Below, piece after piece: positions 624 to 22,179 of a stretch of 64,000 nucleotides of DNA. The notes below the pieces were generated by a model that saw only the letters and a program-made list of their open reading frames with translations, made no database searches and had not been told where the DNA came from. Location: assembly GCF_007988885.1 (NCBI RefSeq), contig NZ_BJUZ01000001.1:1-64000 (forward strand), written 5' to 3'. The stretch's first letter is position 1. The number at the start of each line of letters is the position of its first letter. The translations under genes were made by a program, and so were the position numbers. The DNA is from Gluconobacter wancherniae NBRC 103581. Lineage in GTDB: Bacteria; Pseudomonadota; Alphaproteobacteria; Acetobacterales; Acetobacteraceae.

Positions 624-639
624 GACAGGTTAACGTCAG
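624..639 (+). promoter_or_regulatory. tts-box-like direct repeat upstream of the NolX-like gene
   Basis: GACAG at 624-628 and GTCAG at 635-639 form a direct repeat with an 11-bp period, 57 bases before the ATG at 696. The same arrangement precedes four other genes of the secretion locus. OmpR/PhoB-family regulators bind direct repeats of about this period, and an OmpR-type gene lies at 16342-17061. Confidence 0.55.
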
Positions 640-695
640 GATGCGCCTTTACTGTGTGAAGAGAATGATTTTCTCTGTCTTGATGGAGTGCAAAC

Positions 696-1937
696 ATGGC
701 GATTGGAACCATTGCGTTGGGAAGCACGGACACTGCTACTCAGCTTTCTGGTAGTGCGTTGGAGCAGGCTGGCACCGAAAGTACCAAGACGGGAAAAAAG
801 GCTAATAAGAACGCAGCGTATAACGAAAATCTCGAACAGGGGATGAATACGCTCCAGCAGAGCGATCCGGCTTTGTTTTCAAAGATCATGACCGCTGGGG
901 AATCTGGAAACGGTAACAGCCTCGTTGAGGATGAACTCCAAGCTTACAAGAATGGCGATCTGACTAAGAGTCAGGCGATTGCAGCGATTTCCGGTGCTCA
1001 GTCACTTGCAAACAACAATGGCGGCGGACGGATCAACAAGAAGGAGCGGGTCGAGGCGAAAGAGGTTCTGGGGGGAAGCTATATCAAGGGCGGCCAGACT
1101 CGTGCCGGTCATGCTATTCTCAAATTCCTCGAAGATACGTCCCCGATTGCCCAGATCGTGAAGGGTATTAAATCCACGACTTCCGACGGACCGGGCAAGG
1201 AAACGGTTCTTCAGGCAGGAAGTGGTGCTTTGTTGAGTGCAACACAGCAGGCCATGTCTGATCTCGAACAGACAGATCCTTCTCTAGCCCAGCAGTTTTC
1301 GACCGATGCCAGCAAGAAGAATGGCAACGCCATGGCGCAGGATTTGGAAGTTGCCGGCGAGGAAGTGGCTGACTCTGGCGGTGCATTCTCCGATGCGGAT
1401 GCTGCGGCACTTGGAAGCCAGATCGGGCAGATGGGGGCAGGTAAGGTTTCCAAGAAGGACGCAGCGGCTTTCGAGGCTGAGTTCGGTGAAGGCACGATTG
1501 ATCGCGGCAGCACGAAGGCTGCAAAAGGATGGGACAAGTTTGAGACGGGAGTTGGTAACTTCTTGTCTTCTATGGTCTCTCCGCTGACAGACGGTGTTGG
1601 AATGATCGATCAGTTTGCCAAGGGCAACAAAAGTCAGGGTCTGAAAGATCTTGGTGGAATGTTTGAAGGTGTCGCCAGTGATGCCGCGATGCTCTTTGTC
1701 CCCGAGATCGCGCCGGAAGTTGATGGGGCGGAAGCTGCTGCCCGTACGGCCGAAGGTGTTACGGAAGGTGCGGAGAAGGGGGCTTCCTCGACTGGGGACA
1801 TTCTCAAGAGTGCTGCCGGAAAAGCAGGCAACGGGCTTTTGACTGCCCTGGATACAGCGGATTATGGATATAATCTTTACAGCATGGGGCAGGGTGACCC
1901 GATTGTGCAACAGCACGAAAATGCAGGCGAAGCCTGA
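696..1937 (+). CDS. Probable T3SS-secreted protein, HrpF/NolX translocator-like
   Basis: 413 residues, no cysteine, rich in Ala, Gly, Ser and Lys. Residues about 53-126 and 190-264 are an imperfect internal duplication: each starts with L(Q/E)Q(S/T)DP(A/S)L and ends with (R/K)(I/V)(N/S)KK followed by an acidic helix. A more hydrophobic stretch lies near 317-340. The HrpF/NolX family of translocators is known for two N-terminal repeats and C-terminal hydrophobic segments, and nolX sits beside nolW (rhcC1) in rhizobia, so a translocator role is inferred from architecture and place, not from a clear sequence match. The ATG at 696 follows a TGGAG ribosome site. A tts-box-like repeat lies 57 bases upstream and a hairpin terminator follows. 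It could instead be an effector. Confidence 0.55.
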   Translation: MAIGTIALGSTDTATQLSGSALEQAGTESTKTGKKANKNAAYNENLEQGMNTLQQSDPALFSKIMTAGESGNGNSLVEDELQAYKNGDLTKSQAIAAISGAQSLANNNGGGRINKKERVEAKEVLGGSYIKGGQTRAGHAILKFLEDTSPIAQIVKGIKSTTSDGPGKETVLQAGSGALLSATQQAMSDLEQTDPSLAQQFSTDASKKNGNAMAQDLEVAGEEVADSGGAFSDADAAALGSQIGQMGAGKVSKKDAAAFEAEFGEGTIDRGSTKAAKGWDKFETGVGNFLSSMVSPLTDGVGMIDQFAKGNKSQGLKDLGGMFEGVASDAAMLFVPEIAPEVDGAEAAARTAEGVTEGAEKGASSTGDILKSAAGKAGNGLLTALDTADYGYNLYSMGQGDPIVQQHENAGEA

Positions 1938-1995
1938 GAAGGACTTTGTTGCGCCGCTTTGGTGGCGTTTCTGTTTGACGTTTTCTAAGTAGAAG

Positions 1996-2029
1996 CCATG
2001 AACCGGGACGCTATTATCCCGCTTCATGG
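1996..2029 (+). terminator. Hairpin terminator after the NolX-like gene
   Basis: Arms 1996-2008 and 2017-2029 (CCATGAAcCGGGA against TCCCGcTTCATGG, one C-C mismatch) are followed by TTCTTTTATC on the plus strand. It lies between two convergent genes. Confidence 0.7.
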
Positions 2030-2049
2030 TTCTTTTATCTGATGTCGGA

Positions 2050-2991
2050 TCAGGCGTCTCCGAAGTCAGCCGTGTAATGCTGGCTTGGATCCTGTGCCAT
2101 GGTCATCGGATTGGAGCCAGTCGCGTTGCGATCATCATCCGGATGGATATAGGCGTTGCCAGTGCCCAGCTTTGACTCCATATAGGCGCCGCCATCTTTC
2201 ATGCCCTGTGTTGAACCGTCATACCATCCGGTCACGGTCGCGCGGCCACCTGCATCTTTCGTGATGGCGTTGGAGGGGGCGTCGGCGGCAATGCTCTGGC
2301 TATCGCCTGCGGTTTTGCCGTTGCCGTCAGAAACCTTGATGGAAGCGTTACGCCCGTCGATGTAGCTGACATCGTCGTTGTTAACGCCCTTGGCATCAGC
2401 ATAGAATTCCAGACGGCTGGCGGTGGACTGGAAATTGCCGGACGAGTCTGCTTCGGCGTCATAGCCGCCCTGTCCATTCTCGTATTTCAGTGTGCCGGTC
2501 TGGCCGGGTTTGAGGTCGATCTCAGCTGTAGGTTGGGTCGTGGACCCGCCGTTGAGAAACTGGCCAATTTTCTCATCGTGATTGCTGGTATTGGTGATGG
2601 TGGTGGTATTGGGGCCGTCTCCCGCACTGACACTAGACGCGCCAGAGGTTGTCGCAGCAGGGCTGGATGTGTTGCTCGAGGCCGAAGTTGCGGGCGACGT
2701 AGATCCTGTGACGGGTGTTGCGGAGGCGGAAGATCCAGTAGCCGGGGATATGGCTGGGCTTGCTGTATCGGAGCCGGGGCTTGCTGAACCTTCCTGGTTT
2801 CCTTGCTTCAGCAGGGCCATGAGTTCCTGAAAGACTTCTGCAAGTTTGGCTTCTTCCTGCGTGTTCTGGGTACCGTCGCTCTGACCTGCGCCATTCGTGC
2901 TTCCAGTCCCGGAAGACAGACTTCCAGACTGCATTGCAGTTATTAGTTCTTGCATTAGGCTCTGTGTGTCGGGCGTAATTGAAGTGCTCAT
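2050..2991 (-). CDS. Harpin-like secreted protein with a C-terminal beta-rich domain
   Basis: 313 residues without cysteine. The N-terminal 65 residues hold amphipathic Leu/Met/Gln helices (SLMQELITAM and FQELMALLKQ), as in harpins. Residues about 68-135 are a Ser/Thr/Ala/Pro linker. Residues 138-313 look like a compact beta-rich domain with DVSYIDGRNASIKV at 207-220, which recalls the DxSxVDGxN motif of thaumatin-like folds, although the disulfide cysteines of that family are absent. No signal peptide is visible, in line with type III export. The start codon is 36 bases downstream of a triple 11-bp repeat. Function is unknown; a harpin carrying an extra domain is the best description. Confidence 0.6.
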   Translation of the reverse strand: MSTSITPDTQSLMQELITAMQSGSLSSGTGSTNGAGQSDGTQNTQEEAKLAEVFQELMALLKQGNQEGSASPGSDTASPAISPATGSSASATPVTGSTSPATSASSNTSSPAATTSGASSVSAGDGPNTTTITNTSNHDEKIGQFLNGGSTTQPTAEIDLKPGQTGTLKYENGQGGYDAEADSSGNFQSTASRLEFYADAKGVNNDDVSYIDGRNASIKVSDGNGKTAGDSQSIAADAPSNAITKDAGGRATVTGWYDGSTQGMKDGGAYMESKLGTGNAYIHPDDDRNATGSNPMTMAQDPSQHYTADFGDA

Positions 2992-3026
2992 GTCGTCCTC
3001 GCCGCGTTTTTCTGCGGAATCTGTTT

Positions 3027-3053
3027 ACGACGGGAAGCTGACGTCAGCCTGAT
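3027..3053 (-). promoter_or_regulatory. tts-box-like triple direct repeat
   Basis: Read on the minus strand, ATCAG (3053-3049), GTCAG (3042-3038) and GTCGT (3031-3027) follow one another at exactly 11-base steps, just upstream of the ATG at 2991. GTCAGCTT also resembles the core of the rhizobial tts box as recalled from the literature. Confidence 0.6.
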
Positions 3054-3069: not shown

Positions 3070-4113
3070 TCACGACGGAAGATTCTGAAGAATACGCGCG
3101 ACGGGTTGGAAGAATTCAGGCGTGATCGTTGTGCCTGGTTTGAATTTATCCGCAAGATTTCGCGCAAGTTCATAATCCCAGACGACAGGAATACGGCCCT
3201 CCTGAGCGATCGTGCGATAGATCTCGGCCTGTTCTCCATGCGCTCGGCAGACAATGCGTGGAAGCGGAGTTTGTGGCGGTTTATAGCGCAGACCGATGAC
3301 AACCGCGTCTCCACAAATCATAACGCTTGCCTGCTTCGGGCCAAGTGGCGCCGTATTACGACGTGCCTGGCTCTGAAGACGGCGCTGTTGCCGTTTAATT
3401 AACGGATTGCCCTGGCTTTCCTTCTGTTCGTTTTTGGCCTCGGTGGGCGTCATCCGCATTTCCTTGAGAAACATCTGCCGCTGGATCAGCAGGTCGATCA
3501 CACCGGCAACCATGTAGAAAACACAGGCTGCACCTAGGATCGGCATAAGGAGCATGAAGAGAATGCGGGGCAGTGCAGTAATACCAGCTTCAGGCACACG
3601 GACGAGGCCGCCAATCGCGCTATGAATAATGAGTGCCAGTGCTCCGCCGAAAAACAGGACCTTCACCAGTGACATACCCAGATCCACGAAAGTCCGGGGT
3701 TTGAAAAGGTTTGCAAACCCCGAAACCGGATTGATCTTCTCGAATTTCGGCATCAGGGGATCGAGTGCGAAAACAAACCCGCCATTGGTCAGAAGCCTGA
3801 CGATAATGCCCGTGAAAACGGCCAGAGCGAGAGGGGTTAAGGCGTCTTCGATGCAAATGGTTCTAAGGGTTTGATCCACGCTTGCGATCCCAGATCTGAA
3901 ATCCATCGTCAGAGCGTTTCCGACCGCATCCATCATCGTTTGCAGATGAACGGCAATTGCGTTTCGCCGCAGGAGAAGCCAGCCGATCAGCATGATAGTC
4001 ACTCCCCCCGACTGAAGATCCGGAGCCTTGGCGATATGGCCTTTGCGACGTTCATCAGCGAGCTTTTTGGCAGACGCCGGGAGGGATTTTTCCTCGCTAC
4101 TGCTTCCGCTCAT
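3070..4113 (-). CDS. sctU: T3SS export gate protein SctU (YscU/HrcU/RhcU), NPTH motif missing
   Basis: 347 residues, close to the family norm. It has a cytoplasmic N-terminus, four membrane segments between about 33 and 215, then a cytoplasmic switch domain. In SctU/FlhB proteins this domain cuts itself at a conserved NPTH loop, which changes substrate choice from needle to later substrates. Here the loop between strands SVMI and VVIGLRYKP reads CGDA (residues 267-270, bases 3304-3315), so both the Asn and the Pro are absent. The following TPLPRIVC and IPVVWDYELAR segments are normal. The gene is last of the sctI-to-sctU operon and overlaps sctT by 4 bases (ATGA). The open frame and normal flanks argue for a functional but non-cleaving protein. 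Confidence 0.93.
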   Translation of the reverse strand: MSGSSSEEKSLPASAKKLADERRKGHIAKAPDLQSGGVTIMLIGWLLLRRNAIAVHLQTMMDAVGNALTMDFRSGIASVDQTLRTICIEDALTPLALAVFTGIIVRLLTNGGFVFALDPLMPKFEKINPVSGFANLFKPRTFVDLGMSLVKVLFFGGALALIIHSAIGGLVRVPEAGITALPRILFMLLMPILGAACVFYMVAGVIDLLIQRQMFLKEMRMTPTEAKNEQKESQGNPLIKRQQRRLQSQARRNTAPLGPKQASVMICGDAVVIGLRYKPPQTPLPRIVCRAHGEQAEIYRTIAQEGRIPVVWDYELARNLADKFKPGTTITPEFFQPVARILQNLPS

Positions 4114-4916
4114 GGCTTCAGCAACTGGTGCATGATGCCAAGGACATTTCGCGAGGCGACAAGATCATGCTTCATGTACGACACGAGCCAGGCGCAGTAG
4201 CCGAACATCATCAGGACGAAGACCAGATTGCGCAGGTTCGGGGCGAGATCATAGAGGTGCAGTTTCGGGATGGCGCGCATCAGCAGAATGACACTTGCCT
4301 CACACAGCAGCATCGCCAGCATGACGGGAGCGCCGATTGAAAGGCTTACGGTTTCCAGCCGGTCAAGCAGGCCCAGCAGAACCATACCGAACCCCGGCTG
4401 CGGTGCCAGCGTCAGAGCGAGCGGAGGCCAGAGCGTTTCTGACGACAGCAGCGTATCGGCCAGAAGATTGAGCCCCCCGGACAGGACAAACAGCGTCGTG
4501 ACGGCAAGGGCAAAAAAACCGGCGCTTGTGGATTCCTGATTTCCGCTCCCCGGATCTTCGGCTTGACCCTGCGTTGCGCTACGCTGGGTGTCGAGCAGTT
4601 CGCCCGCGCATTGCACGCCCCAGATTGGCAGACCGATGAGCAAACCAATGATGACGCCGATCACCATTTCCTTGGCCCCAATCATACCGAGCGCTATCAG
4701 GGTGCGTGGTTCGATGAGCAGTCCGGCATGGATCATGGGAGTTGCGGGAATAGCGAGCGCGAAGGCAATAGCCCCCGTGACAGGGCCGCCAAGCTGCATG
4801 CGTGTAAAGACCGGCAGTACGATGGCCGCCCCTGCCGGGCGGCTCATCGCCAGCGCGATGGAACTCAGCCAGGGCATCATCTGTTGCAGGACAACAAGGG
4901 CGTCAGTGGTAGGCAC
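4110..4916 (-). CDS. sctT: T3SS export apparatus protein SctT
   Basis: 268 residues, strongly hydrophobic, with six or more membrane spans, matching the FliR/SpaR/HrcT family. The family protein forms part of the export gate core in the inner membrane with SctR and SctS. Recognisable segments include GAIAFALAIPATPMI near residue 50, the GLPIWGVQCAGELLDTQRS loop near 105 and a C-terminal KLHLYDLAPNLRN stretch. It lies between sctS (3-base gap) and sctU (4-base overlap), the order fixed in nearly all T3SS loci. Confidence 0.95.
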   Translation of the reverse strand: MPTTDALVVLQQMMPWLSSIALAMSRPAGAAIVLPVFTRMQLGGPVTGAIAFALAIPATPMIHAGLLIEPRTLIALGMIGAKEMVIGVIIGLLIGLPIWGVQCAGELLDTQRSATQGQAEDPGSGNQESTSAGFFALAVTTLFVLSGGLNLLADTLLSSETLWPPLALTLAPQPGFGMVLLGLLDRLETVSLSIGAPVMLAMLLCEASVILLMRAIPKLHLYDLAPNLRNLVFVLMMFGYCAWLVSYMKHDLVASRNVLGIMHQLLKP

Positions 4917-4919
4917 GGC

Positions 4920-5192
4920 TCAGAAGCGCGTCATGGCCGGGAAATCGGTCAGGACGTGTTCTGTAAAGGCCAGCAGTGGCGGAAAGAGTGTCGAGGCCAT
5001 GAGCAGCAGCGTCGCGCAGACGGCGACGACCTTGAAGGTCAGTGGCATCGTCTGGTCCTGAAGCTGCGTTACGGCCTGTAGAAGCCCGATCATAAGTCCG
5101 ACCACCAGCGCAATTGCCAGCGGTGGCCCCGCGATCGAAGCGAACAGGAAAAGCGCGGCAGAGAGTTCCTGCGTAAGGGCCGCATCATCCAC
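4920..5192 (-). CDS. sctS: T3SS export apparatus protein SctS
   Basis: 90 residues with two membrane hairpin segments (about 14-40 and 50-78), the size and layout of FliQ/HrcS proteins. The loop GLLQAVTQLQDQTMPLTFK is the family's best conserved stretch. The protein joins SctR and SctT in the helical export gate core. It starts 38 bases after the sctR stop and ends just before sctT. Confidence 0.95.
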   Translation of the reverse strand: MDDAALTQELSAALFLFASIAGPPLAIALVVGLMIGLLQAVTQLQDQTMPLTFKVVAVCATLLLMASTLFPPLLAFTEHVLTDFPAMTRF

Positions 5193-5230
5193 AGATGGTT
5201 TTTTCCCGCAGATGTGCGCGCCAGGCTGGT

Positions 5231-5881
5231 TTATGCATAGCTCATCACCAGCCCGTGCAGCAGGCGTGTCCAGCCGCTGGCCAGAACGAACAGCAGCAGC
5301 TTGAGTGGAACCGAAATTGTGTTGGGCTGCACTTGAGAGAGGCCCATCGCGATCAGGATCGTGGTGACGACAAGGTCAATGGTGATAAATGGCAGATAGA
5401 TCAGGAAGCCGATTTCAAACGCGCGTTTGAGCTCTCCCGTCAGAAAGGAGGGGAGGAGGATCGGGAGGGATTCCGGCGTCAGGCTGTCGCGCATATCCTC
5501 GGGCCACAGGCGCTGGGTGGCGTTCATGAAGAAATTGCGCTCGGGAGCCTGTGTAAAGCGGAGCAGATGTTGGGCGACTGGGGCCTGCACGCGTTCATAG
5601 GCATCCACATAATCCGTCAGCGTCTCGTATTTCTGGTCGCTTTCGATGGCCGCCTTGTAAATGTCGTGGCCGAGAGGCGCGGAAATGAAGAGCGTGAGGA
5701 TCAGCGAGATTGCATAGAGTACGATATTCGGCGGAGACTGCTGGATGCCGAGGGCGGTGCGCAGCAGGAACAGGACGACCGAGATTTTCACGAACGACGT
5801 GGTGGTGATGACCGCCAGGATCAGGACGCCGAACCCAAGGGTCAGGACAAGGGCCGTGACGAGATTGCTCGAGCCGATCAT
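5231..5881 (-). CDS. sctR: T3SS export apparatus protein SctR
   Basis: 216 residues, typical of FliP/HrcR. Visible are the TSFVKISVVLFLLRTALGIQQ-type first helices, the LPSFLTGELKRAFEIGF signature around 145-165 and a closing hydrophobic helix. It forms the pentameric heart of the export gate. The start codon overlaps the stop of sctQ by 4 bases (ATGA), which suggests coupled translation. Confidence 0.96.
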   Translation of the reverse strand: MIGSSNLVTALVLTLGFGVLILAVITTTSFVKISVVLFLLRTALGIQQSPPNIVLYAISLILTLFISAPLGHDIYKAAIESDQKYETLTDYVDAYERVQAPVAQHLLRFTQAPERNFFMNATQRLWPEDMRDSLTPESLPILLPSFLTGELKRAFEIGFLIYLPFITIDLVVTTILIAMGLSQVQPNTISVPLKLLLFVLASGWTRLLHGLVMSYA

Positions 5882-6936
5882 GCGGTGATGATCCGCGTTA
5901 CCCGGATGGCGGCGGAGGGCCCAAGATCTACGAGTTCACCTTCGCCAATGCGGCGACCATTGGCCATGATCGACACGGAACGCTCGGTTAGCGCGCCGAT
6001 ATCAATCACATGTCCTTCTCCGATCGTCCTCAGTTCGGCCAGCGAGACCGACATCCGCGCCAATTCAAAAGTCAGGGGGATCTGAAGGTGCTCGATGGCG
6101 GACGCTTCGGCCTCGACTGTCGTGGCCGGGTGCGGGCTGGTCGCGGCGGAGGAGGGGGGTGTTTCAGTCATGCTGTTCCAATCTGCTGGCCAAATCCGGG
6201 CGAGAGGCACAAACCCGCCTTCAAAGACAATTCTGCTGCCATCATGCCGGGCCGCTGCGCCCAGCACCTCGCCCGCAACGATGACATGTCGGACCTGTGC
6301 CGCCGCCCCGAGGACCAGTCCGAAACCGGGGGCGAGCGCCATAAGTTCTGAGGGCGAGACCAGAACGCTGCCAACTCTCAGCGATAGCATCACCGGCGGA
6401 TCGGGAAAGTGGCGCATAAGTGGCGGGACCAGACGGTGAAGCACAGGCATCAATGCCGGAGGGAGGCGCACGAGGCCGCAGAAACTGTCCGAATTTCCAA
6501 AACGGGCCTCAAACCCGATCTCACCAAGCGCGGGCATGTGGGGCATGGTCTGCTGTGCAGGTTCGACCCGCGTAAACCGGATTGGCGCGCCTGTCGTAGC
6601 TTCCAGTGCGGTCAGACCCTGATCCAGCAACATTTCAAGCAGCAGCAGGGCTGCCGGCGCTTCCATCGGGGCACGAGGCTTCGGCTCCGCCAGCGAAACC
6701 AGCCTCTGAAGGATATCGTGAGGGAGAAGGCATTGCCCCTCCCTGTCACCGATCCGAAAACAGATCGCACTCCATTGCGCGGATGGGAGGATCGGCGGCG
6801 TAAAGCGTACTGAAAGTCGCTCTTCGCCTACGGACAACGCAAAGTCGTGCCGTCCGAGCAGACCTGCCGCTAAAGCGTCATAGCCCAGAGGCCTCGGCGT
6901 GAGGCGATGTATCGCGCGCGGCAGAGACAGTGTCAT
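5878..6936 (-). CDS. sctQ: T3SS cytoplasmic ring (sorting platform) protein SctQ
   Basis: 352 residues. The C-terminal 75 residues (from IPLTFELARMSVSLAELRTI) are a SpoA/FliN domain, with the usual pattern of a hydrophobic strand, a GEGHVIDIG turn and an IGEGELVDLG repeat. The N-terminal 270 residues are variable, as in HrcQ/YscQ. The family protein builds the pods of the sorting platform under the export gate and binds SctL and SctK. It overlaps sctO by 4 bases upstream and sctR by 4 bases downstream. Confidence 0.9.
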   Translation of the reverse strand: MTLSLPRAIHRLTPRPLGYDALAAGLLGRHDFALSVGEERLSVRFTPPILPSAQWSAICFRIGDREGQCLLPHDILQRLVSLAEPKPRAPMEAPAALLLLEMLLDQGLTALEATTGAPIRFTRVEPAQQTMPHMPALGEIGFEARFGNSDSFCGLVRLPPALMPVLHRLVPPLMRHFPDPPVMLSLRVGSVLVSPSELMALAPGFGLVLGAAAQVRHVIVAGEVLGAAARHDGSRIVFEGGFVPLARIWPADWNSMTETPPSSAATSPHPATTVEAEASAIEHLQIPLTFELARMSVSLAELRTIGEGHVIDIGALTERSVSIMANGRRIGEGELVDLGPSAAIRVTRIITA

Positions 6937-7478
6937 GGAAGACTGAACCGCGATGTCGTGCTGCGTTGACGTGTGAGCCGCCCGCTGCTCTGACGCATCA
7001 TGGCAAGTTCCGCGATGTCCTGTTCCTCGCGCTGTTCCTGTGCTGTGCGGTGTTCGGTCAGAACGCGCTCCAACAGGTCGCGCGCCTGTTTTTCGCGCTG
7101 TTCGTATTGCATCAGGAGGCGACGTGTTACAGCGGCGAGCTGCCGGGATTTTTCGACGTCCCGTTCGGCTTGGGTGATACCGTCTTCTAGGCGTTTTTCG
7201 TGACGGGCGAGTTCTTCGATATGCTCATGATCCCGCCGCATGAGCACGGCGCTGACCGGTGCATTCTGTGCGCGTGCGGCAATCTTCGTCTGAACCTGAA
7301 GCTGGTGTGTTTGATGGTCGGACAGGATTTGGCTGGCGTGGTTGAGGAGCGCTAGGCGCTGATCGACCTGCAATGTTGCCGCCGACAGAAGCTGACGCGC
7401 CTCTGCCGCACGGCGCTGGCGCAGCGTCATAAGCTGTTCCGCTGCCTGTGGGCTCAGGCGCAAAGACGGTTGAGCCAT
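6933..7478 (-). CDS. sctO: T3SS stalk protein SctO (YscO/HrpO/FliJ type)
   Basis: 181 residues, almost entirely charged helix rich in Gln, Arg and Glu, with a predicted long antiparallel coiled coil (about 10-160). Sequence similarity in this family is weak, so the call rests on length, coiled-coil character and its fixed place between sctN and sctQ (the y4yJ position in rhizobia). SctO proteins form the central stalk linking the ATPase to SctV. Its start lies inside the last 25 bases of sctN. Confidence 0.8.
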
Positions 7479-9163
7479 TCCAGTATCTCCGCAAAGGATG
7501 TCCGTTCGTCGTTGCCCTGACGCAGGAAACCCCGCAGCGTGCCGATTTTGGCAATCGCCTCGTCCGCAAGTGCGTCACCGCCCGGCTTGTATTCGCCGAC
7601 CTGCAACAGAAATGCGATCTCCTGATATTTCGCCCACAGGCTCCGGATTTTCGTGGCCGCCGCCTGATGACGGGGATCGGTCACGAGAGACATCACGCGC
7701 GACCGGCTGGTCAGGACGTCAATCGCCGGATAATGCCCTGCCGCCGCCAGCGCGCGCGACAGAATGACATGGCCGTCCAGAATGCCGCGTGTTTCTTCGG
7801 CAATCGGATCATCCATCCCGTCTTCGACCAGCACGGTATAAAACGCCGTGATCGATCCCCTTACGCCCATGCCCGCGCGCTCCATGAGTTGGGGCAAGGC
7901 CGCGAAAACCGATGGGGGGAAACCGCGCCGCGTGGGCGGTTCCCCAGCAGCTAGCCCGATCTCGCGCAGGGCCCGGGCATAACGCGTGACATTGTCCACG
8001 AACAGCAGGACCTTCAGCCCCTGGTCGCGGAAATATTCTGCAACTGTCGTGGCGGCCTGCGCGCAGACGACGCGCTCGGCGGCGGGCCGGTCGGAGGTGG
8101 CGACGATCAGGACAGCATTTTTTAGCCCGTTCGCTCCCAGATTATGCTCGACGAATTCGCGCACTTCGCGGCCACGTTCGCCCACAAGTGCCACGACCGC
8201 GACATCGGCGGAACTACCTTTGACGATGGCGGACATCAGCGTGGATTTTCCCGCTCCGGCCTCGCCATACACCCCGAGCCGCTGGCCCTCGCCACAGGTC
8301 AGCAACCCGTCCAGAGCGCGAAGACCGACAGGCAGCGGCCGGGCGATCGGCTGACGTTCCATCGCGGGGGGCGGTGCGGCCTGGACGAAGCGTGATGGCC
8401 CTGCCTCCAACGGCCCCAGACCATCAATGGGCGTGCCGAGCGCATCGAGAACACGGCCCAGAAGCCGCTCGCCGACCGGAAAGTTACGTCGTCCCCCAGT
8501 CGTGACGACTTCCGTATCGACCGAAACACCTTCGAGACTGCCCATCGGCGTCATGAGCACTTCGTTTCCGTCCAGCCCCACCACTTCTGCATCCAAAGAC
8601 CAGTCGCGATCGTGGTTCTGCAGCCGGCACAGATCGCCCACGGCCACATTCGGCAGAATGGCGCGGATGATGGTTCCAGTAGCGCTGACGACGCGCCCCT
8701 GCATCGGATGTGTGTCGATTCCCGCCGCCCGTGAGCGCAACATGGGCAGGAGGGTCTTCATGCGCGCGATGACATGATCGGCAGTCTGTGACGGATCACG
8801 GCTCACCTGCGCCTGCTTGGCCTGCAGTTTACCCGCCTCAGTCTCATCGGGCAGACGGGGGGCGTCCGTCAGGTCTGCGTTTTCCGAAGCCGGATACTGT
8901 CCGATAAGAGACGCACCGGACTGGCCGGCCTGGGCATCGGGTGTTTCAGGATCGGAAGGTGAAACAGTCTGTTCCATTTCTTCCGGGGCCACTTCCTGTG
9001 CCTGCCGTTTCTCGTCCGTCCGTTGCAATGCGTGGAGCCGAACGAAATCCGCCTCCAGCGCACTGGCGAGAGACACAGTCGGACGCGCGGTATCTATGAT
9101 GCCATCCGCAGAAGCGGTGTTGTCCGGAGCATGAGAGAGTGGCGTGAGCGGGATGTCAGTCAT
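7454..9163 (-). CDS. sctN: T3SS ATPase SctN
   Basis: 569 residues. The ATPase core has Walker [10 protein letters not shown] at 300-308, Walker B LLFVD, the LVGERGREV loop and the [20 protein letters not shown] stretch typical of FliI/YscN/HrcN. The family protein is a hexameric ATPase that unfolds substrates and strips off chaperones at the base of the injectisome. The protein is longer than the usual 430-460 residues because of an extra N-terminal stretch of about 125 residues, acidic and Ala/Gln/Pro rich, with no recognised domain. A later start near M135 would give a conventional length, but the upstream ATG fits the tight packing with sctL (8-base overlap). Confidence 0.95.
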
Positions 9164-11679: not shown

Positions 11680-11746
11680 ACCTGCGACCCCGAACGATTT
11701 CCTGTAACAGGCCCGGACCTATCGCAATCAACCCTAGGGACGTAAG

Positions 11747-11774: not shown

Positions 11775-11882
11775 TGTCCAAAAACGTCTTCAGGCGTCCG
11801 GTAAGAATTGTCGGGCCCCTGCGCGCGGTCTATAGAAGAACAGATGAAGCAGAACTCCACTTGCAGTTCAGAAAAGGTGGCG

Positions 11883-13051: not shown

Positions 13052-13151
13052 CTCTGGCTCTCCATAAATCAATGTTGCGCTCATCACCGAAATGCTGAAA
13101 GGCCGGGACAGAGGGGCAAATCGGCGTGCTTTCATTCTGTAAGAGAGCAGT

Positions 13152-13167
13152 CTGTCTTTATCCTGAT
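13152..13167 (-). promoter_or_regulatory. tts-box-like direct repeat
   Basis: On the minus strand ATCAG (13167-13163) and GACAG (13156-13152) are 11 bases apart, about 100 bases upstream of the start at 13051. It is one of five such sites in the locus. Confidence 0.5.
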
Positions 13168-13263
13168 CTGGTTTTGATATTTGCAAAGCGCTGTTCCGCT
13201 TTCATGGAACCATAATAATATGATGAAAATCCCGATGCTTTCCGCCTGTCAAAAAAAATCCAT

Positions 13264-14883: not shown

Positions 14884-16319
14884 TCGTAAAGGAACCCGGC
14901 CGCACCCTGAAGATGGGGCATACGTGTGGTATCGGGCGCATCTGTTGCGGCGGCGGCCGAGCGGCGGAGTAACAGTGCTTCGATTGCCGATGTCGGGCGG
15001 ATATAATCAGTTGGCAGCGCCGGGACACGGTCGGATGGATGAACGATATAGGCCGTGACGACAATCAGCAGTTCGCTCTCGTTGCGCTGGAATGAGGCGG
15101 AGCGAAACAGCGATCCAAGCACGGGAATATCCCCTAACCCAGGCACTTTGGAAATAGTATTGCTCGCATCGTTCGAAATTAGACCGCCAATGGCGAAACT
15201 CTGACCCGAGGCAAGCTGGATGGTGGTATCGGCCCGGTTGGTGCGGATGGCGGGAACGACGCTACTACCTGAAATGGAATACGCACCGTCCGAGGCTTCG
15301 GTGGAAACGGAGCTGACTTCCGGTGCGACATGCATGCTGATGGTCCCGTCAGACAGAACCGTTGGCGTGAAATCGACGCTGACACCATAATTTTTGTAGG
15401 TGATCCCGACAGTGCCCAGACCTTGCGGGATCGGAACTGGGAACTGACCGCCGGACAGGAACTTTGCTGTCTCACCGGACATGGTAGTGAGGTTGGGTTC
15501 CGCTAGCATGGTCGCAAGCCCCTCCGTCGCCATGGCGTCGAGTGTGCCCGTGACGGAAGAGGCTCCGTTCGTATAGCTCCCCGACAGTGCATTGCTTGCG
15601 CTCGACAGTGTTTTGATGGCGCTGGGGACGCCGCTTAGGCCACCCGTTGCGGCCCCGATTGCGAAAGAGCCCACACCGTTGAAAACCGTTGTCCAGTTAA
15701 AGCCCAGATCCTGCGAAAGCTGCCGCTGCACTTCCGCAACCCGGACCACAAGATTGACCTGAACCGGCTCGCCTATCGTTAGACGATTGATCAGTTTGGC
15801 GCCGCTCCCGCCATATTGTCGGGCAAGAGCCTCTAGATGTGCGGCCGCTTTGGCATCCGCAACAGATCCGGACAGGACAACACCGTCAGGCGACATCTGG
15901 AGCTGAACATTCCGGCCACCTTCTTTGGCGATCATGGCGCGCATCGCATCCATATTGAACATTACCGTCACGTCGCCGGAAATCATTTTCTGGCCGCTCT
16001 GATCCAGCACGATGAGTGTCGTATGGCCGGGTTTCTTACCGAATATGAACAGGCCGTTATTATCGGTGTACTGCACGTCCATAATCGTAGGATCGGCGAT
16101 CATGACATTGCCTGCCGCGCGGGGAAGCTGGATCAATTGAGCTCCTCCGACAGACAGCGTCATGGAACCACCATGCCGCGCGGGCTGTGCTTGCGCGACT
16201 GCACTTTGTGTGGTCAGCCCGACACTGGCAATGCTCAGGAACAGAAAAGACCCCTGCAAGACGCCTGTAAGGGCGATCTGCCAGAAGCGTGTATTGTGTG
16301 CTGAACGGGCCAAAATCAT
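14880..16319 (-). CDS. sctC2: Tad/CpaC-type secretin serving the T3SS (RhcC2 type)
   Basis: 479 residues with an N-terminal signal segment. The N-terminal pilus-secretin domain (about 50-120) and a BON-like domain (about 120-195) are as in CpaC/RcpA. The C-terminal secretin pore domain is marked by MLAEPNLTTMSGETAKFLSGG, GVSVDFTPTVL, the ASGQSFAIGGLI strand and VPGLGDIPVLGSLFRS, and ends with LLIVVTAYIV. This is a Tad pilus secretin by sequence type, not a YscC/HrcC type. It lies 22 bases after the TtsI-like gene, as rhcC2 lies by ttsI in rhizobia, and should form the outer-membrane pore with SctC1 as adaptor. Confidence 0.92.
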   Translation of the reverse strand: MILARSAHNTRFWQIALTGVLQGSFLFLSIASVGLTTQSAVAQAQPARHGGSMTLSVGGAQLIQLPRAAGNVMIADPTIMDVQYTDNNGLFIFGKKPGHTTLIVLDQSGQKMISGDVTVMFNMDAMRAMIAKEGGRNVQLQMSPDGVVLSGSVADAKAAAHLEALARQYGGSGAKLINRLTIGEPVQVNLVVRVAEVQRQLSQDLGFNWTTVFNGVGSFAIGAATGGLSGVPSAIKTLSSASNALSGSYTNGASSVTGTLDAMATEGLATMLAEPNLTTMSGETAKFLSGGQFPVPIPQGLGTVGITYKNYGVSVDFTPTVLSDGTISMHVAPEVSSVSTEASDGAYSISGSSVVPAIRTNRADTTIQLASGQSFAIGGLISNDASNTISKVPGLGDIPVLGSLFRSASFQRNESELLIVVTAYIVHPSDRVPALPTDYIRPTSAIEALLLRRSAAAATDAPDTTRMPHLQGAAGFLYE

Positions 16320-16341: not shown

Positions 16342-17061
16342 TCATGCCGTAAGTTCCTGCGACTGTGTCAGTCCCATATCCTTGTCGAGCCGTGCCGCAA
16401 GGCGATAACCCACGCCGCGCACGGATTCGATCGTCACAAGGGAGCGGGCCTTTGCAAGTTGCCGCCGAATCCTGCTGACACGCACCTCAAGAGAGTTCGG
16501 GCAGTATTCGGCCTGTGCGCCATAGACGTCATGTTCGAGCCCGGAGCGGGGGACGACGTGACCACGGCGCCGCATCAGCGATTCCAAGATCAGCGTCTCG
16601 CGGCGCTGGAGCGTGAGCTCGAGATTGCCGACCCGGACTTCGCGTGTGGCGGTGCAGAGTGTGAGGTCGCTGAACTGGTGCTGCTCTGCTGAACGGATGC
16701 GGGGACGGCGCATGATGGTGCGAACCCGCGCGACCAGTTCGCGCGGGCTCACATCACGTGTCACACTGTCGTCTGCTCCCGCTTCGAGAGCTGCGATCCG
16801 CTCTTCCTGACAATTGGCGATGAGCACGAGGAATTCGTCGCCGTCATGGCGCCGGCAACGACAGCGCGCTTGCCACCAAACGCTGTAGACGCCATCGCCA
16901 CTTGTGGAATCCAGCAGGACGAGGCTGTAATTCGATACCGTCAGAGCCTCGTTTGCATCGTCGAGCGTTGTGAAAACATCTGTTCCGAAACCGGCGCTTT
17001 GAAGGTTTTTGGCAAGGCCGTCTGCATACCCGCTATCGGGGGACATGATCATCAGTCTCAT
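16342..17061 (-). CDS. OmpR/PhoB-type regulator of the T3SS (TtsI-like)
   Basis: 239 residues from the ATG at 17061, which has GGAG 8 bases upstream. A receiver-like domain (1-125) precedes a winged-helix DNA-binding domain (about 130-230: REVRVGNLELTLQRRETLILESLM, then LEVRVSRIRRQLAKA and VRGVGYRLA). The receiver is atypical. Only one acidic residue follows strand 1 (MSPDS), the loop after LVLLD is changed, and the conserved Lys is replaced (SVTRDVSPREL), so normal phosphorylation is doubtful. Rhizobial TtsI, also encoded next to rhcC2, is a similarly unusual OmpR-family activator. No kinase gene is nearby. It probably binds the 11-bp repeats of this locus. Confidence 0.85.
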   Translation of the reverse strand: MRLMIMSPDSGYADGLAKNLQSAGFGTDVFTTLDDANEALTVSNYSLVLLDSTSGDGVYSVWWQARCRCRRHDGDEFLVLIANCQEERIAALEAGADDSVTRDVSPRELVARVRTIMRRPRIRSAEQHQFSDLTLCTATREVRVGNLELTLQRRETLILESLMRRRGHVVPRSGLEHDVYGAQAEYCPNSLEVRVSRIRRQLAKARSLVTIESVRGVGYRLAARLDKDMGLTQSQELTA

Positions 17062-17092: not shown

Positions 17093-19234
17093 TCATTGCT
17101 GTCTGGCAATGACAGCATCGCCCCCGAACACGTCCGTTCCGATGGATGCAATGGGATGGACCGGGAACTCGTCGGCAAGGTCCTGATAGGAGAGAACGGG
17201 ATTGTCGAAGCCGTTCCGGATCAGGAATCCTCTGATGAACCGTCGCGTGTCGACCGAACACACGATGATGGGTTTGGTGGTTTCCGCTTCCGCGCCGGAT
17301 TTTCCGGGTGCGTTGGCCAGACGCTCGCGGACGGCCTCCAGAAGCTTTTGGGATGCATCCACTTCCAATGCCAGAAACGAGCCGGCAGGCGTCTCGCGGA
17401 CGGACTGTCGCAGAAACTGGTCCGTTGCCTGTGATAGCACGATCGCGGGAATCGCCCTGTGGTTCGTCGCATAACGGTGGCAGATCTGACGGGAAAGGGC
17501 ATTCCGGACGTGTTCGGCCAGCATTGGCACTTTGTTCTCGGTCTCGCCCCACTCTACGAGCGTTTCGAGAATAAGACGCATGTTGCGCAGCGACACGTCC
17601 TCTTCCACGAGACGTCTGAGGACTTCGGCGAGCCGCTGGACGGGCACCAATTTTGTGGCCTCGCGCGTTAGGTCGGCATATTGTGTCTCCACACGCTGGA
17701 CGATCTGCCGCGTTTCCTGAAGCCCAAGGAAACGCCCGGCATGGCGACGCAGGGCAGCACGAAAGCGGAAAGCAATGATCCCGGCATGATCGTAGAACCC
17801 GAGCCCTGCTGTTCGGAGCCGCCCCTCGCTGGCGGAGGGAACCCAGAGGGACGGATCGTTGGTCAACAGGGCAACGCCTTCTTCGCCCTCTATTCCTGCA
17901 AGATCCAGATGAACCGGATCGTCATGCAGGAGAAGGAAGTCCCTGCGTAGTTCATGCTCCTCAATGGGGACGTCTTCCAGATCAATTGAAAACCGCAGAT
18001 CTCCGCTGTCGTCGCGCTGACGGAGGGTAGGCGGGGGAAACTGGAAGCCCAGATCGTTGCCAATTTCCATGCTGGCTCGCGCCAGAAGGCGGCTCAAACG
18101 TGCTTGGTCCAGAATGGCACTCAGCTTCTGGCTGAGAGTGATCGCCATCAGGGGGGTGAAATTTTCCTGAAGTGTCGTGTCGGTCTGTCCCGCCGGTGAG
18201 GCGGTGGAGAAGATATCGTCCTGCTCGCCGGGATGCGTTTGGGCGGAGCGTCGGAATACGCGGTTCGTCAGGCTTTTCCAGTCAGGGCGGCTGCCACAGA
18301 AGAAAATTGCAGCTAGAATGAGGAAGACGGGTTTGGGAAAGCCTGGAATAAGCCCCATTGCCAGAAGAACGACTGACGCCACGCGCAGGGCGCTGCTGTT
18401 TGCCGTAAGCTGGGTCGCCATATCGCGGCCCAGATCCATGCCATGACCGCCCACGCGCGTTACTACGACAGCTGCCGTGATGGACAGCAAAAGGGCTGGG
18501 ATCTGCGAGATCAGAGCATCGCCAACCGTCAGCAGCGTGTAGGTCTGCATGGCCTGACCGATCGCCATGCCGTGCTGCGCCACGCCGATGCCGATCCCCC
18601 CGACCAGATTGACCACGATGATGATCAGTCCGGCGATTGCATCGCCCTTCACGAATTTCAGAGCGCCATCCATGGCACCATGGAGGGCGCTTTCACTAGC
18701 CAGTTCCGTGCGACGGCGGCGTGCTTCGATCGCGTCGATGTCTCCCGACCGCAGATCGCTATCGATGCTCATCTGCTTGCCGGGCATGGCATCTAAGGTA
18801 AAGCGTGCGCCTACCTCGGCAACACGTTCGGTGCCTTTTGTAACGACGATGAACTGGACCGTGGTGACAATCGCGAAGACCACCAGACCGACGACGATGT
18901 TTCCGCCAATGACAAATTCGCCGAACGTTTCAACAATTGCTCCGGCATCCGCTGTCGTCAGGATCAGCCTTGTGACCGTGACTTCAAGCGCCAGCCTGAA
19001 CACGGTCGAGACGAGGATCATGCCGGGAAGTGCCGTCAGATCCAGCGGCGAACGAAGATAGACGGCCACCATCAGAAGCAGGACCGACAGGCTAAGATTG
19101 CATCCGATCAGCACGTCCGCGAAGGCTGCGGGCAGCGGCATGATGAGCATGCCTATCGTCAAGACCAGCACCAGAACGAGGGCCAGATCCTGCCGCTGGC
19201 TCATGACCCTGAAAAAGTGCGTGAGATGTTTCAT
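17093..19234 (-). CDS. sctV: T3SS major export apparatus protein SctV
   Basis: 713 residues. About seven or eight membrane helices fill the first 330 residues, and the FHIPEP signature region reads ARFTLDAMPGKQMSIDSDL followed by DAIEARRRR. The C-terminal half is the cytoplasmic domain that forms the nonameric ring and docks chaperone-substrate complexes (VPVQRLAEVLRRLVEEDVSLRNMRLILETL). The start overlaps the stop of the preceding TPR gene (ATGA), and the regulator follows after a 31-base gap. Confidence 0.96.
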   Translation of the reverse strand: MKHLTHFFRVMSQRQDLALVLVLVLTIGMLIMPLPAAFADVLIGCNLSLSVLLLMVAVYLRSPLDLTALPGMILVSTVFRLALEVTVTRLILTTADAGAIVETFGEFVIGGNIVVGLVVFAIVTTVQFIVVTKGTERVAEVGARFTLDAMPGKQMSIDSDLRSGDIDAIEARRRRTELASESALHGAMDGALKFVKGDAIAGLIIIVVNLVGGIGIGVAQHGMAIGQAMQTYTLLTVGDALISQIPALLLSITAAVVVTRVGGHGMDLGRDMATQLTANSSALRVASVVLLAMGLIPGFPKPVFLILAAIFFCGSRPDWKSLTNRVFRRSAQTHPGEQDDIFSTASPAGQTDTTLQENFTPLMAITLSQKLSAILDQARLSRLLARASMEIGNDLGFQFPPPTLRQRDDSGDLRFSIDLEDVPIEEHELRRDFLLLHDDPVHLDLAGIEGEEGVALLTNDPSLWVPSASEGRLRTAGLGFYDHAGIIAFRFRAALRRHAGRFLGLQETRQIVQRVETQYADLTREATKLVPVQRLAEVLRRLVEEDVSLRNMRLILETLVEWGETENKVPMLAEHVRNALSRQICHRYATNHRAIPAIVLSQATDQFLRQSVRETPAGSFLALEVDASQKLLEAVRERLANAPGKSGAEAETTKPIIVCSVDTRRFIRGFLIRNGFDNPVLSYQDLADEFPVHPIASIGTDVFGGDAVIARQQ

Positions 19235-19554
19235 GCCGCAGCGTGCCGCGTATATTGCGCAAAACAGGTGCGTGCTTCGTCGAGCCGGCCAAGCTGATGC
19301 AGCGCCCGTGCTCTCAGGAGGGCATTGCCCGCATCGGGGGTAGTCTCAAGCTTGTCGAGACAGTCGAGCACAACGAGGGCGAGCTCACTGCGGCGGATGA
19401 CGGTATAAACATGCGCCAGCATCCGCAGACATTCATGATCACCCGTGCGCTGGGCGAGTACCAGCAGCAGCATGGGCAAAGCCCGCCAGGGGCGTCCGCA
19501 GCAGATGTAGAGATAGGCGAGAGACAGCAGGAGATCGCGTTGATCACTTTCCAC
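19231..19554 (-). CDS. Small TPR protein of the T3SS locus
   Basis: 107 residues with about two and a half TPR-like helical repeats (LLLSLAYLYICCGRPWRALPML, then CLRMLAHVYTVIRRSELALVVL and ALLRARALHQLGRLDEA). There is no signal peptide. Small TPR proteins encoded by sctV in other systems (SctY/SctG types, or rhizobial y4yS) act as chaperones for needle or gatekeeper proteins; which of these it equals cannot be told from sequence alone. It is coupled to sctV by a 4-base overlap and lies 4 bases after the preceding small gene. Confidence 0.7.
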   Translation of the reverse strand: MESDQRDLLLSLAYLYICCGRPWRALPMLLLVLAQRTGDHECLRMLAHVYTVIRRSELALVVLDCLDKLETTPDAGNALLRARALHQLGRLDEARTCFAQYTRHAAA

Positions 19555-19558
19555 GACT

Positions 19559-19939
19559 TCAGCCGCCGATCAGACTGTTGGATGCCTTGAGCAACTGCTC
19601 CAGGGCTGCCAGTTCATGTCTGAGCGTTTCGATCCCCCCGGGAACAACAGGCGCCGGGCTGGAGTGTGAGGAGAGCTGTTCTTCCAGCCGTCGCAGAAGT
19701 TCCTGTCTGCGCGGTGGTAGAAGAACTGCCGGGTTGCGGAGATGCGGCATAATATGGGCGTAGACCGCGCCGATGACGGTGGGCGGATCAATGGTTTCGG
19801 AGAGTGCGTTTTCAGGCGCTAGTGTCTGGCGAAGGGCAGCAACTTCAGCGTTTAGCAGGCTATCGTCATGCTGAAGTGACAGTTCCTGCAGAGCGCGGTC
19901 GAGACGAACAGTGCCTTCGGACCAGACTCTCTGAACCAT
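19559..19939 (-). CDS. Unknown small protein between sctD and sctV
   Basis: 126 residues, helical, no cysteine, no membrane segment. A central Pro-rich hinge (HLRNPAVLLPPRRQELLRRLEEQL) separates two coiled-coil-like halves. No family is recognised. Its place between sctD and a TPR gene in the same operon suggests a needle co-chaperone (SctE/SctX-like) or sorting platform factor, but that is only inference. The ATG at 19939 has GGAG about 10 bases upstream. Confidence 0.65.
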   Translation of the reverse strand: MVQRVWSEGTVRLDRALQELSLQHDDSLLNAEVAALRQTLAPENALSETIDPPTVIGAVYAHIMPHLRNPAVLLPPRRQELLRRLEEQLSSHSSPAPVVPGGIETLRHELAALEQLLKASNSLIGG

Positions 19940-19975
19940 CTGTACTGTCTCCAGCTGATCTGCCGGTAAGGCAAA

Positions 19976-20878
19976 TCAATACTTAAAGTTAACAGGTCGT
20001 AAACCCTTGTGCATTATTACGGTATGTTTCCGTATCTCTGAAAGAGACAATCCTGTGACAATTTCAGTGCCAACCCGGTAGCGCTGCGAATGCACGACAA
20101 TATTAGGATTTTTTCCTGTCCAGACGGCCTGAATGGGCACATCAACCGGCGCAGTCACTGGCGCAATTGAGACATTCGAAACCCACACAGCCTGCGTTCC
20201 GAAGGACGCATCGAACCATTTTTCGACGTCCCGGAATGTTTTCATTTCCTGAGCCGAAAGGCTTCCATCAACGATGATAACCCCGGAAGACGCACTGACC
20301 TTCAATTCAGGTAGGTGATGCTGCGTTAGTTGCTGCACGACCAGATGGCCAAGTTCAGCATCGCTGGCCGGCTGTTGGAGGGAGGCTGTTTCCAGATCAG
20401 GCGCGTGGGAAGGGGAGGCACTGGCTATTCTGGGGGCGGGTGTTGCGGAATGTGACAGCGCCTGTATCACGACAAGTATCAGAATTGTTGCCACTCCCCC
20501 AATAATCATGATTGTGGGAATAGTTTTTTGTTTTGTACTGATAGTGTTTTCAGATGCGGAGGTAAACGTCTCCGGCGAAGCCGCGATGGTGCCATCAAAA
20601 CCCAGATGAAGGGAGACGGGACCAAGCCGAAGTGTCGCAGGACCTGTGATGGTCGTGCTCTCACCAGAAGGAAGCGACATCGTATTCACAACGACATCCG
20701 GTGCAAGGGCTTGCAGCAGATAGACACTGCCAGACTGTTGTCTGATCGAAAGATGTTGTGCGGCGATGCCATCATCGAGCAGGGCCATTGTCGCGTCCGG
20801 GCCTGAACCAATGATTACAGGCTCTGTGCCGAACGTCATGACGGCATCGCTGTGCAATCCGTTCTGAACAACCAGCAT
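19976..20878 (-). CDS. sctD: T3SS outer inner-membrane ring protein SctD
   Basis: 300 residues. An N-terminal cytoplasmic FHA-like domain (1-100) has a GSGPDATMALLDDGIAAQHLSI core. A single membrane helix (about 122-145, IMIIGGVATILILVVIQAL) follows, then a periplasmic part with two BON/ring-building-like motifs (LPELKVSASSGVIIVDGSLS and VSNVSIAPVTAPVDVPIQAVW). This is the YscD/HrpQ/RhcD (y4yQ) layout, although shorter than some. SctD surrounds the SctJ ring and touches the secretin and the sorting platform. Confidence 0.88.
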   Translation of the reverse strand: MLVVQNGLHSDAVMTFGTEPVIIGSGPDATMALLDDGIAAQHLSIRQQSGSVYLLQALAPDVVVNTMSLPSGESTTITGPATLRLGPVSLHLGFDGTIAASPETFTSASENTISTKQKTIPTIMIIGGVATILILVVIQALSHSATPAPRIASASPSHAPDLETASLQQPASDAELGHLVVQQLTQHHLPELKVSASSGVIIVDGSLSAQEMKTFRDVEKWFDASFGTQAVWVSNVSIAPVTAPVDVPIQAVWTGKNPNIVVHSQRYRVGTEIVTGLSLSEIRKHTVIMHKGLRPVNFKY

Positions 20879-20986
20879 TATTCATCCCGGCTTGGGAGGA
20901 CAGATCCTCCAGGTGATAAAAACGGAAAATGGCCTGCACGACGGGGTCTGCCCCCGGCATGCAGGCCATGTCCGACGATGCGGAAA

Positions 20987-21175
20987 TCAGTCCTTCGTGA
21001 AGGCGGACTTCGCGTTGCTTTCCATCGTCTGGGCAAAATCGTTCGCAAATGTCTGGGCGTTTGAGATTTCAGACATCTGTTCCTGCTTCTGCAGGTTCTG
21101 GTCTTCCATAGCTTCAGACTGCTGCATGATCTGCTGCATGGTTGAGTCGCTGCTGGCAGAGATGGAACCGCTCAT
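20987..21175 (-). CDS. Probable T3SS needle/pilus subunit (SctF-like)
   Basis: 62 residues from the ATG at 21175, chosen for the GGAG 6 bases upstream. It is very rich in Met, Gln, Ser and Asn, entirely helical and cysteine-free, and ends in FTKD. Needle subunits (SctF) and rhizobial NopA have this size and character. It precedes sctD, a usual place for the needle gene. Family-level similarity is too low to be certain; a small chaperone is the alternative. Confidence 0.62.
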   Translation of the reverse strand: MSGSISASSDSTMQQIMQQSEAMEDQNLQKQEQMSEISNAQTFANDFAQTMESNAKSAFTKD

Positions 21176-21263
21176 TTTGTTCTCCATGACGTTGTTGGTG
21201 ACTAAATCAGCGCCGTTTTCTCTTGGCGCCATTCGGAAGCTCACATGAACTTCCGACAACCGT

Positions 21264-21282
21264 GACGTTTGTAACAAACGTC
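21264..21282. repeat. Inverted repeat between the harpin-like and needle-like genes
   Basis: GACGTTTGT-A-ACAAACGTC, a perfect 9-bp inverted repeat with a one-base centre, 89 bases upstream of the needle-like start. Its compact symmetry fits an operator better than a terminator. Confidence 0.55.
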
Positions 21283-21340
21283 TGAACACGCTCTGCATTT
21301 CTCCCGTGGCCCAAAAGAGCGCAGGGCAGAATGCCGAGCG

Positions 21341-22021
21341 TCAACCCTGCGCGGACTTCAGTTCGGATGCAGCAGAGCTGCTGTTGAACGTGCCGGACTG
21401 AATTTGGCTGGCTAGCATCTTTGCAACATCGGCAAGATTGTTGTTGCCGGCGTTCGAGGCTTCGAGGGCGAGGGCATTGAGATTGTTGAACTCATCCGAG
21501 CCGGATTTACCGGATTGGAGGGCATTAGCAATCGTGTCGACATTGTTGCTCAGCGCATCGACGCTATTGCCCTGAAGGGCCTGCTTGATGGCATTGCTGC
21601 TGCCGCCCTGATCGTAGGTGCCATCTGACAGGCTGCGTCCGATATTACCTGCAACGGAAGAGTCGAGGCCGTTGCCCTGCTGGCTGGCTTCTGAAGAAAC
21701 AGCCTGAGCGTACTGCTGAAGGGTGTTTCCATTCGTGCCGTTCATGTCGACGAGCGTCTTCAACGTCTTCATGTCGTCGCTGAGATTTCCGGTCAGGGAC
21801 AGGCCTGTGTTTCCAACAGGTGTGGGGGTCGAGGATCCGGTGTCGGACGTACCCGTGCTCGAGGCGTTGCCGCTGGCTTCCATTTCTTGCAAGAGCTGGA
21901 TCAGGGCCTGCTCCATTTCCTGTGCCGTTTCCGTGCTCAGGTTTTGGCCGTCCGCTGAAGTGTTGAGGGTGCTCGTGTTCGTCGGGTTAAATGTTGTGTT
22001 GTAGCTGTCAACGGTGGACAT
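21341..22021 (-). CDS. Harpin-like secreted protein
   Basis: 226 residues from the ATG at 22021, preceded by GGAGAGCAGT; an upstream ATG would add 24 residues without a ribosome site. It is acidic, rich in Asn, Gly, Ser, Gln and Leu, with no cysteine, aromatic residues almost absent and no signal peptide. The helix MEQALIQLLQEMEAS (about 37-50) resembles the harpin amphipathic helix, followed by Ser/Thr/Gly linkers and Ala/Leu/Asn helices. Harpins are exported by plant-associated T3SS and aid translocation. The gene heads the sctF-sctD-sctV block and has a triple tts-box-like repeat about 130 bases upstream. Confidence 0.72.
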   Translation of the reverse strand: MSTVDSYNTTFNPTNTSTLNTSADGQNLSTETAQEMEQALIQLLQEMEASGNASSTGTSDTGSSTPTPVGNTGLSLTGNLSDDMKTLKTLVDMNGTNGNTLQQYAQAVSSEASQQGNGLDSSVAGNIGRSLSDGTYDQGGSSNAIKQALQGNSVDALSNNVDTIANALQSGKSGSDEFNNLNALALEASNAGNNNLADVAKMLASQIQSGTFNSSSAASELKSAQG

Positions 22022-22152
22022 ACTGCTCTCCACACCAGAAAATCTGCGATCAGAGAGCAAGGTGTGACTTACCCTCTTGACCGAAATTTCCACGTTCTGC
22101 AGTCGCAGTTCTCATGGTCGTTTCGGCCTGAAAAAAGAGATATGTAAGCAAT

Positions 22153-22179
22153 CTGACCAGAACCTGACGTAAGCTTCAG
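22153..22179 (-). promoter_or_regulatory. tts-box-like triple direct repeat
   Basis: On the minus strand CTGAA (22179-22175), GTCAG (22168-22164) and GTCAG (22157-22153) follow at exactly 11-base steps. The central GTCAGGTTCTGGTCAG is the best match to the site upstream of sctI. Confidence 0.62.

Follow-up and report, generated by a model that had tools for sequence, protein, structure and literature searches.

The window analysed here comprises the first 64,000 nucleotides of contig 1 (NZ_BJUZ01000001.1) of the 2.78-Mb genome of Gluconobacter wancherniae NBRC 103581 and carries a type III secretion system (T3SS) at about 3–21 kb, as located by Pfam matches, together with five short sites built on a common plan. 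These sites are probably variant tts boxes of a TtsI homologue encoded within the locus (16342–17061), which would activate T3SS and secreted-protein genes in a self-amplifying manner. Each of the five consists of two (G/A)(T/A)CAG half-sites at an 11-base step, oriented toward its gene, and each shows a TA ten bases beyond the second half-site (box positions 27–28), a dinucleotide that accounts for 3% of those in the window. The boxes are:

624–651, plus strand: box 1, GACAG-N6-GTCAG plus TA, its first base 72 bases before the start of gene 696–1937.
3026–3053, minus strand: box 2, ATCAG-N6-GTCAG plus TA, before gene 2050–2991.
11735–11762, minus strand: box 3, GTCAG-N6-ATCAG plus TA, before sctI and the sctI-to-sctU run.
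13140–13167, minus strand: box 4, ATCAG-N6-GACAG plus TA, before a small Ser/Thr-rich gene; the weakest match to the tts consensus.
22141–22168, minus strand: box 5, GTCAG-N6-GTCAG plus TA, before the run from a harpin-like to a CpaD-like gene that holds the regulator.

All five sites lie where the initial annotation of this DNA placed them, upstream of the genes that it named, and the results support its view of a shared operator that marks a T3SS regulon. Its description of half-sites 'two or three in a row' is correct for the pairs, which are found in 5/5 boxes, and fails for the triplets. Of the proposed third half-sites, that at 11763–11774 contains an extra GTCAG which stands 12 bases off and is missing in 5/5 congeners, and those at 22169–22179 and 3027–3037 contain no RWCAG. 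The first half-site reads GTCAG in two boxes, ATCAG in two and GACAG in one. The TA at positions 27–28, overlooked in that annotation, is common to the published tts consensus.

In its loose form, RWCAG-N6-RWCAG, the pattern is common, with 149 occurrences in the genome against 54 for the reversed control, but it is enriched at the locus: the first 22.2 kb hold seven matches versus 1.2 expected (Poisson P about 2e-4), two of which are intragenic (10333 and 18006, minus strand). The refined form RWCAGGHTNNNRWCAG, which specifies G-H-T after the first half-site, occurs 11 times genome-wide, and six times when the TA at positions 27–28 is also required (reversed control, 0); in both cases five of the matches are the five sites. 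The 18 congeners without this T3SS, defined as those whose SctV matches, if any, are at most 37% identical and taken as flagellar, hold nine refined matches in total. Because the refinements were drawn from the five sites themselves, the refined counts are partly circular, and the fair, independent tests are provided by relatives and by the published consensus.

All five boxes are present in each of five congeners whose SctV is 96–97% identical to that of the window. Across the six genomes, box positions 1–16 are invariant at 77/80 positions and the TA at 10/10, versus 69/200 in the 40 bases upstream of the boxes. The spacer (36/50) and the 30 bases downstream (104/150) are fairly conserved as well, as is the region upstream of box 2 (27/40).

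Boxes also occur in more divergent relatives with rearranged loci. In G047 (SctV 73% identical), all three refined matches carry the TA: one lies before sctI, another 158 bases before a cysteine-free, harpin-like open reading frame (ORF) of 474 amino acids that is followed by a needle-like gene, and the third, about 10 kb away, lies ahead of the orthologue of 2050–2991 (67% identical), inside its longest reading, though later Met codons and the homologous part come after it. The single refined match of G004 (SctV 66%) stands 105 bases before a needle-like gene (65% identical to 20987–21298) and a harpin-like gene. G456 was read only once the pattern had been settled. It shows two refined matches and no more in 18.4 kb, and their first bases lie 76 and 77 bases before the ATGs of the orthologues of 696–1937 and 2050–2991; this contig gives no match to sctI, and its harpin gene runs off the contig end. 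The TA is found in 5/5 boxes of the window, 3/3 of G047, 2/2 of G456, 1/2 of G004 and 0/1 of G608, the boxes of G047 and G456 having been found with a pattern that requires it. Two other members of the family, G055 and G026, show no box and no such regulator in the fetched T3SS stretches of 26–32 kb; their T3SS branch deeper in the SctV tree, and G026 has a 35% match to the regulator elsewhere in its genome.

The plain tandem form was initially taken to set the motif apart from the rhizobial tts box. This distinction is ruled out by the rhizobial nopB boxes, which are plain GTCAG-N6-GTCAG tandems in all three loci with an annotated nolB (L129, L130 and L131), and by the published consensus of B. 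japonicum. Such a tandem is also present in L132, but no NolB is found there. The consensus strings given in the available text of PMC3009519 are tcGTCAGcttntcGaaAGctnngccncnta for NGR234, where GTCAG is the first half-site at a frequency of at least 90%, and tcGTCAGcTtntcGacAGctagnccnnntA, with GTCAG...GacAG, for B. japonicum. In these strings, the 11-base step and the final TA fall where the window boxes have them, and the TtsI targets of NGR234 and Bradyrhizobium share with the window two half-sites 11 bases apart and a TA at positions 27–28. When the strings are scored over about 128,000 window positions, box 5 ranks first with each consensus, and all five boxes are within the top 22 on the summed score, ties counted. 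The differences reside in the half-sites. In the window the first is relaxed to (G/A)(T/A)CAG and followed by G-H-T rather than CTT, and the second is (G/A)(T/A)CAG rather than the consensus GaaAG or GacAG, being nearer to GTCAG than to GaaAG, as in the rhizobial nopB boxes. The layout is conserved as well: rhizobial boxes are described upstream of the nopB and nopC/nopA operons, with none before rhcC1, in the available part of PMC3973906, and in the window boxes 3 and 5 likewise precede sctI and the needle/sctD/sctV operon, and rhcC1 has no box.

The regulator encoded at 16342–17061 belongs to the OmpR family and is TtsI-like, as first annotated, and its putative orthology with TtsI has only moderate support. 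Among the fetched loci (385 genomes of the class sampled), its best tblastn score is with a TtsI encoded beside rhcC2 (L153). In Rhc-I clusters, TtsI (y4xI) is an OmpR-family protein with a degenerate phosphorylation site, encoded before rhcC2 and a CpaD-like gene, and the window regulator is alike in these respects; the order regulator-rhcC2-CpaD is annotated in NGR234, Bradyrhizobium 62B, S. alkalisoli, R. etli Mim1, B. barranii and M. huakuii. The regulator is found in 8/8 genomes with these boxes and has no match at E 1e-24 in 19/19 congeners lacking this T3SS; in a sample of the family, it is present in 5/397 genomes at E 1e-40. The usual receiver Lys is lost in 5/5 rows of the window-type regulator and kept in 9/9 rows of TtsI, and the acceptor position is Asp in the window regulator and Gly in G047, versus Glu in 8/9 TtsI rows and Asp in the Bosea row. 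Loss of the Lys, together with the Gly of G047, makes it possible that the regulator acts without phosphorylation.

The apparatus itself points to the same kinship. In a tree of 48 SctV rows, the protein on which the tree-based kinship rests, the window groups with G025, G047 and G004 as sister to six Rhc-I proteins (support 98/96), apart from Rhc-II, and gene order and a split secretin are common to the window locus and Rhc-I systems. Between 22093 and 14164 the genes stand close together, −4 to 108 nt apart, and only 31 nt separate sctV from the regulator, which leaves no room for a nod box. The half-motif of the nod box is ATC-N9-GAT. A pair of these is found for ttsI of NGR234 (L133, positions 9100 and 9122), whereas the first 26 kb of the window contain ten single copies, one of which (17035) lies inside the start of the regulator gene, and none paired at 22 bases. 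Taking into account this tight packing and the lack of a paired nod-box motif, box 5 most likely drives the regulator too. The placing of the gene differs from that in rhizobia, where a nod box precedes ttsI (available part of PMC3973906), in that the window regulator lies directly behind sctV in a box-headed run.

In the proposed mechanism, the two half-sites, one DNA turn apart, would be bound by two protomers of the regulator. The second half-site would end ten bases before the TA of a −10 element, and the bound regulator would replace the −35 contact and recruit RNA polymerase, a class II activation of the kind known for PhoB. In this way, the genes for secreted proteins would be turned on together with the two main operons of the apparatus. 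Since the regulator lies within the box-5 operon, it should, once triggered, amplify its own expression, and positive feedback on its own operon is likely, in place of the nod box that rhizobia use.

Several observations weigh against this reading. The regulator is only 34–35% identical to TtsI, and the tree of 52 regulators that joins it to nine TtsI proteins (support 96/60) has long branches, groupings with two other regulators not being rejected (approximately unbiased test, p 0.33 and 0.21). With HMMER, the TtsI of L153 comes third, behind two other regulators. The TtsI of NGR234 does not pick out the window regulator (108 bits) among the regulators of its own genome, scoring 123 bits with the paralogue L144 and 109 with L141. 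With single consensuses the lowest ranks are 54 for boxes 1 and 4 and 17 for box 3, the RWCAG pair before sctI in G004 lacks the TA, and the only box of G608, a tandem GTCAG at a contig end, has CA in its place. In addition, at least ten further OmpR-family regulators are encoded in the genome, and one of them might instead own the boxes. A PhoB-type protein feeding phosphate status into the T3SS would be one example, as the pho box shares the 11-base direct-repeat layout and the spacing to the −10 element. However, the core of the pho box is TGTCA, which occurs in 0/10 half-sites, the matches to the refined pattern with TA concentrate at the T3SS locus and are few in congeners without it, and box occurrence tracks the local regulator. 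Control by another OmpR-family protein is therefore regarded as unlikely.

A T3SS operator of the same architecture and separate origin, read by a regulator from another OmpR lineage and resembling the tts box by convergence, would agree with the long branches and non-rejected groupings of the regulator tree and with the small number of boxes that open with GTCAG. The sister relationship of SctV to Rhc-I and the shared promoter positions, gene order around the regulator and TA position speak against it, and it is given a similarly low probability. The abundance of the loose pattern could even suggest chance or coding-driven repeats devoid of regulatory meaning, but this is very improbable in view of the location of the refined matches, the empty reversed control, the conservation of the boxes and their recovery in G456. 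With the sites read as variant tts boxes, the tts switch probably exists outside rhizobia. There is about an even chance that the TtsI/tts-box switch predates legume symbiosis, being present in the ancestor of Rhc-I and of this lineage, and that it operates here without a nod box, as a circuit that amplifies itself and also draws in effector genes specific to the lineage at other places; the ADP-ribosyltransferase-like candidate of G021 described below would be an example. The boxes provide a testable operator with which to search acetic-acid bacteria for T3SS genes, and the locus an outgroup for asking how flavonoids and NodD came to control an older T3SS switch in rhizobia. A literature search of titles and abstract openings, with subscription journals mostly outside its reach, returned no description of such a T3SS in acetic-acid bacteria; T3SS-type secretion has been predicted by software in Asaia (available part of PMC12502724).

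The expectation of more effectors elsewhere in the genome is not borne out by the matches read, which yield one candidate each in two congeners (G016 and G021). The sole additional refined match with TA in the window genome (C3:78621) lies inside an ORF resembling sucB by eye. Among seven further matches in this genome (G000) with up to two mismatches, five fall inside ORFs of 120 amino acids or more, and the other two precede, by 74 and 43 bases, ORFs resembling by eye an outer-membrane channel and a transporter, a placement without other support. Two more matches from a wider pattern are both inside ORFs; among the refined matches of this genome, the reading in context covers those with TA. 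A search of the six genomes with two mismatches gives 70 matches, 24 at the locus and 46 outside, and large cysteine-free ORFs stand beside two (G016 and G021) of the 21 outside matches that were read in context. Eight refined matches lie outside the locus in the six genomes; four were read in context and the other four carry GTCAGGCTGGCGACAG, a sequence with near-identical counterparts in 5/18 congeners without the T3SS.

On contig 7 of G016 (L138:3771-4688), the box GTCAGGTTTAGAACAG, followed by TATAAG, stands 66 bases before a cysteine-free ORF of 283 amino acids found only there among 27 genomes. This ORF has no Pfam match and its PDB search gave nothing usable; its YRTDSRPP stretch is by eye reminiscent of ADP-ribosyltransferases. 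On contig 18 of G021 (L198:1007-2083), a weaker box with GTAAG as second half-site accompanies a cysteine-free ORF of 349 amino acids, also found only there among the 27 genomes, whose Pfam match to ADP-ribosyltransferase exoenzymes stays below threshold (E 0.0027; 17.5 bits versus a cut-off of 23.4). The box lies 27 bases before the first ATG and overlaps it; translation would therefore have to begin at a later Met, and two ORFs run antisense over the spot. Both ORFs are only candidates for box-linked effectors.

The genes served by the boxes, and their neighbours, are arranged in the window as follows:

696–1937, plus strand: cysteine-free 413-residue protein, candidate secreted protein.
2050–2991, minus strand: cysteine-free, harpin-like protein (by eye) of 313 residues with a conserved C-terminal part.
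3070–11679, minus strand: apparatus run sctI-J-K-L-N-O-Q-(R)-S-T-U; sctI and sctR placed only by position and appearance, sctO on a weak FliJ match.
11808–12458, plus strand: rhcC1/NolW-like secretin part, divergent from sctI and without its own box (29.8% identical to NGR234 NolW, E 4e-19).
12539–13186, minus strand: small Ser/Thr-rich, cysteine-free protein.
14164–14883, minus strand: CpaD/y4xK-like lipoprotein.
14880–16319, minus strand: rhcC2-like secretin (40.9% identical to NGR234 rhcC2).
16342–17061, minus strand: TtsI-like OmpR-family response regulator, between sctV and rhcC2.
17093–22093, minus strand: sctV, two small genes, sctD, a small needle/pilin-like gene (by eye and position) and a harpin-like gene, a close-packed run upstream of the regulator.

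Pfam assigns sctJ, L, N, Q, S, T and U, and weakly sctO, on the minus strand; sctK is matched to NolU by BLAST, which finds no match between sctI and NolB. The name 'NolX-like' first given to 696–1937 finds no support: the protein matches neither the Pfam NolX family nor, by BLAST, two rhizobial NopX/NolX proteins. A PDB search with the 2050–2991 protein gave nothing usable; in two other genera, where the surroundings differ, its C-terminal part keeps 67–72% identity. Because box 4 falls inside the longest reading of 12539–13186, the true start of this gene is likely a later Met. The start of 20987–21298 is likely mis-set as well, the stretch conserved between congeners pointing to a later Met.

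Just past the T3SS, the 719-residue product of 23510–25669 combines a Hint domain with three tail-collar stretches. A flagellar-type SctV/FlhA homologue at G000:C2:582153-584192 has a TAA within the match, and may be a broken flhA or an over-extended match. Window positions 40000–64000 and contig 6 give no match to plasmids. Two other comparisons make an acetic-acid bacterium the probable host, and one with a TonB-receptor-like gene was less informative. Contig 5 carries a mobile element of the IS5 type whose matches are mainly to plasmids of Acetobacter, Gluconobacter and Komagataeibacter. A dihydropyrimidinase-like gene in the window is nearest to those of Kozakia (72.7%) and Acidiphilium (69.4%).

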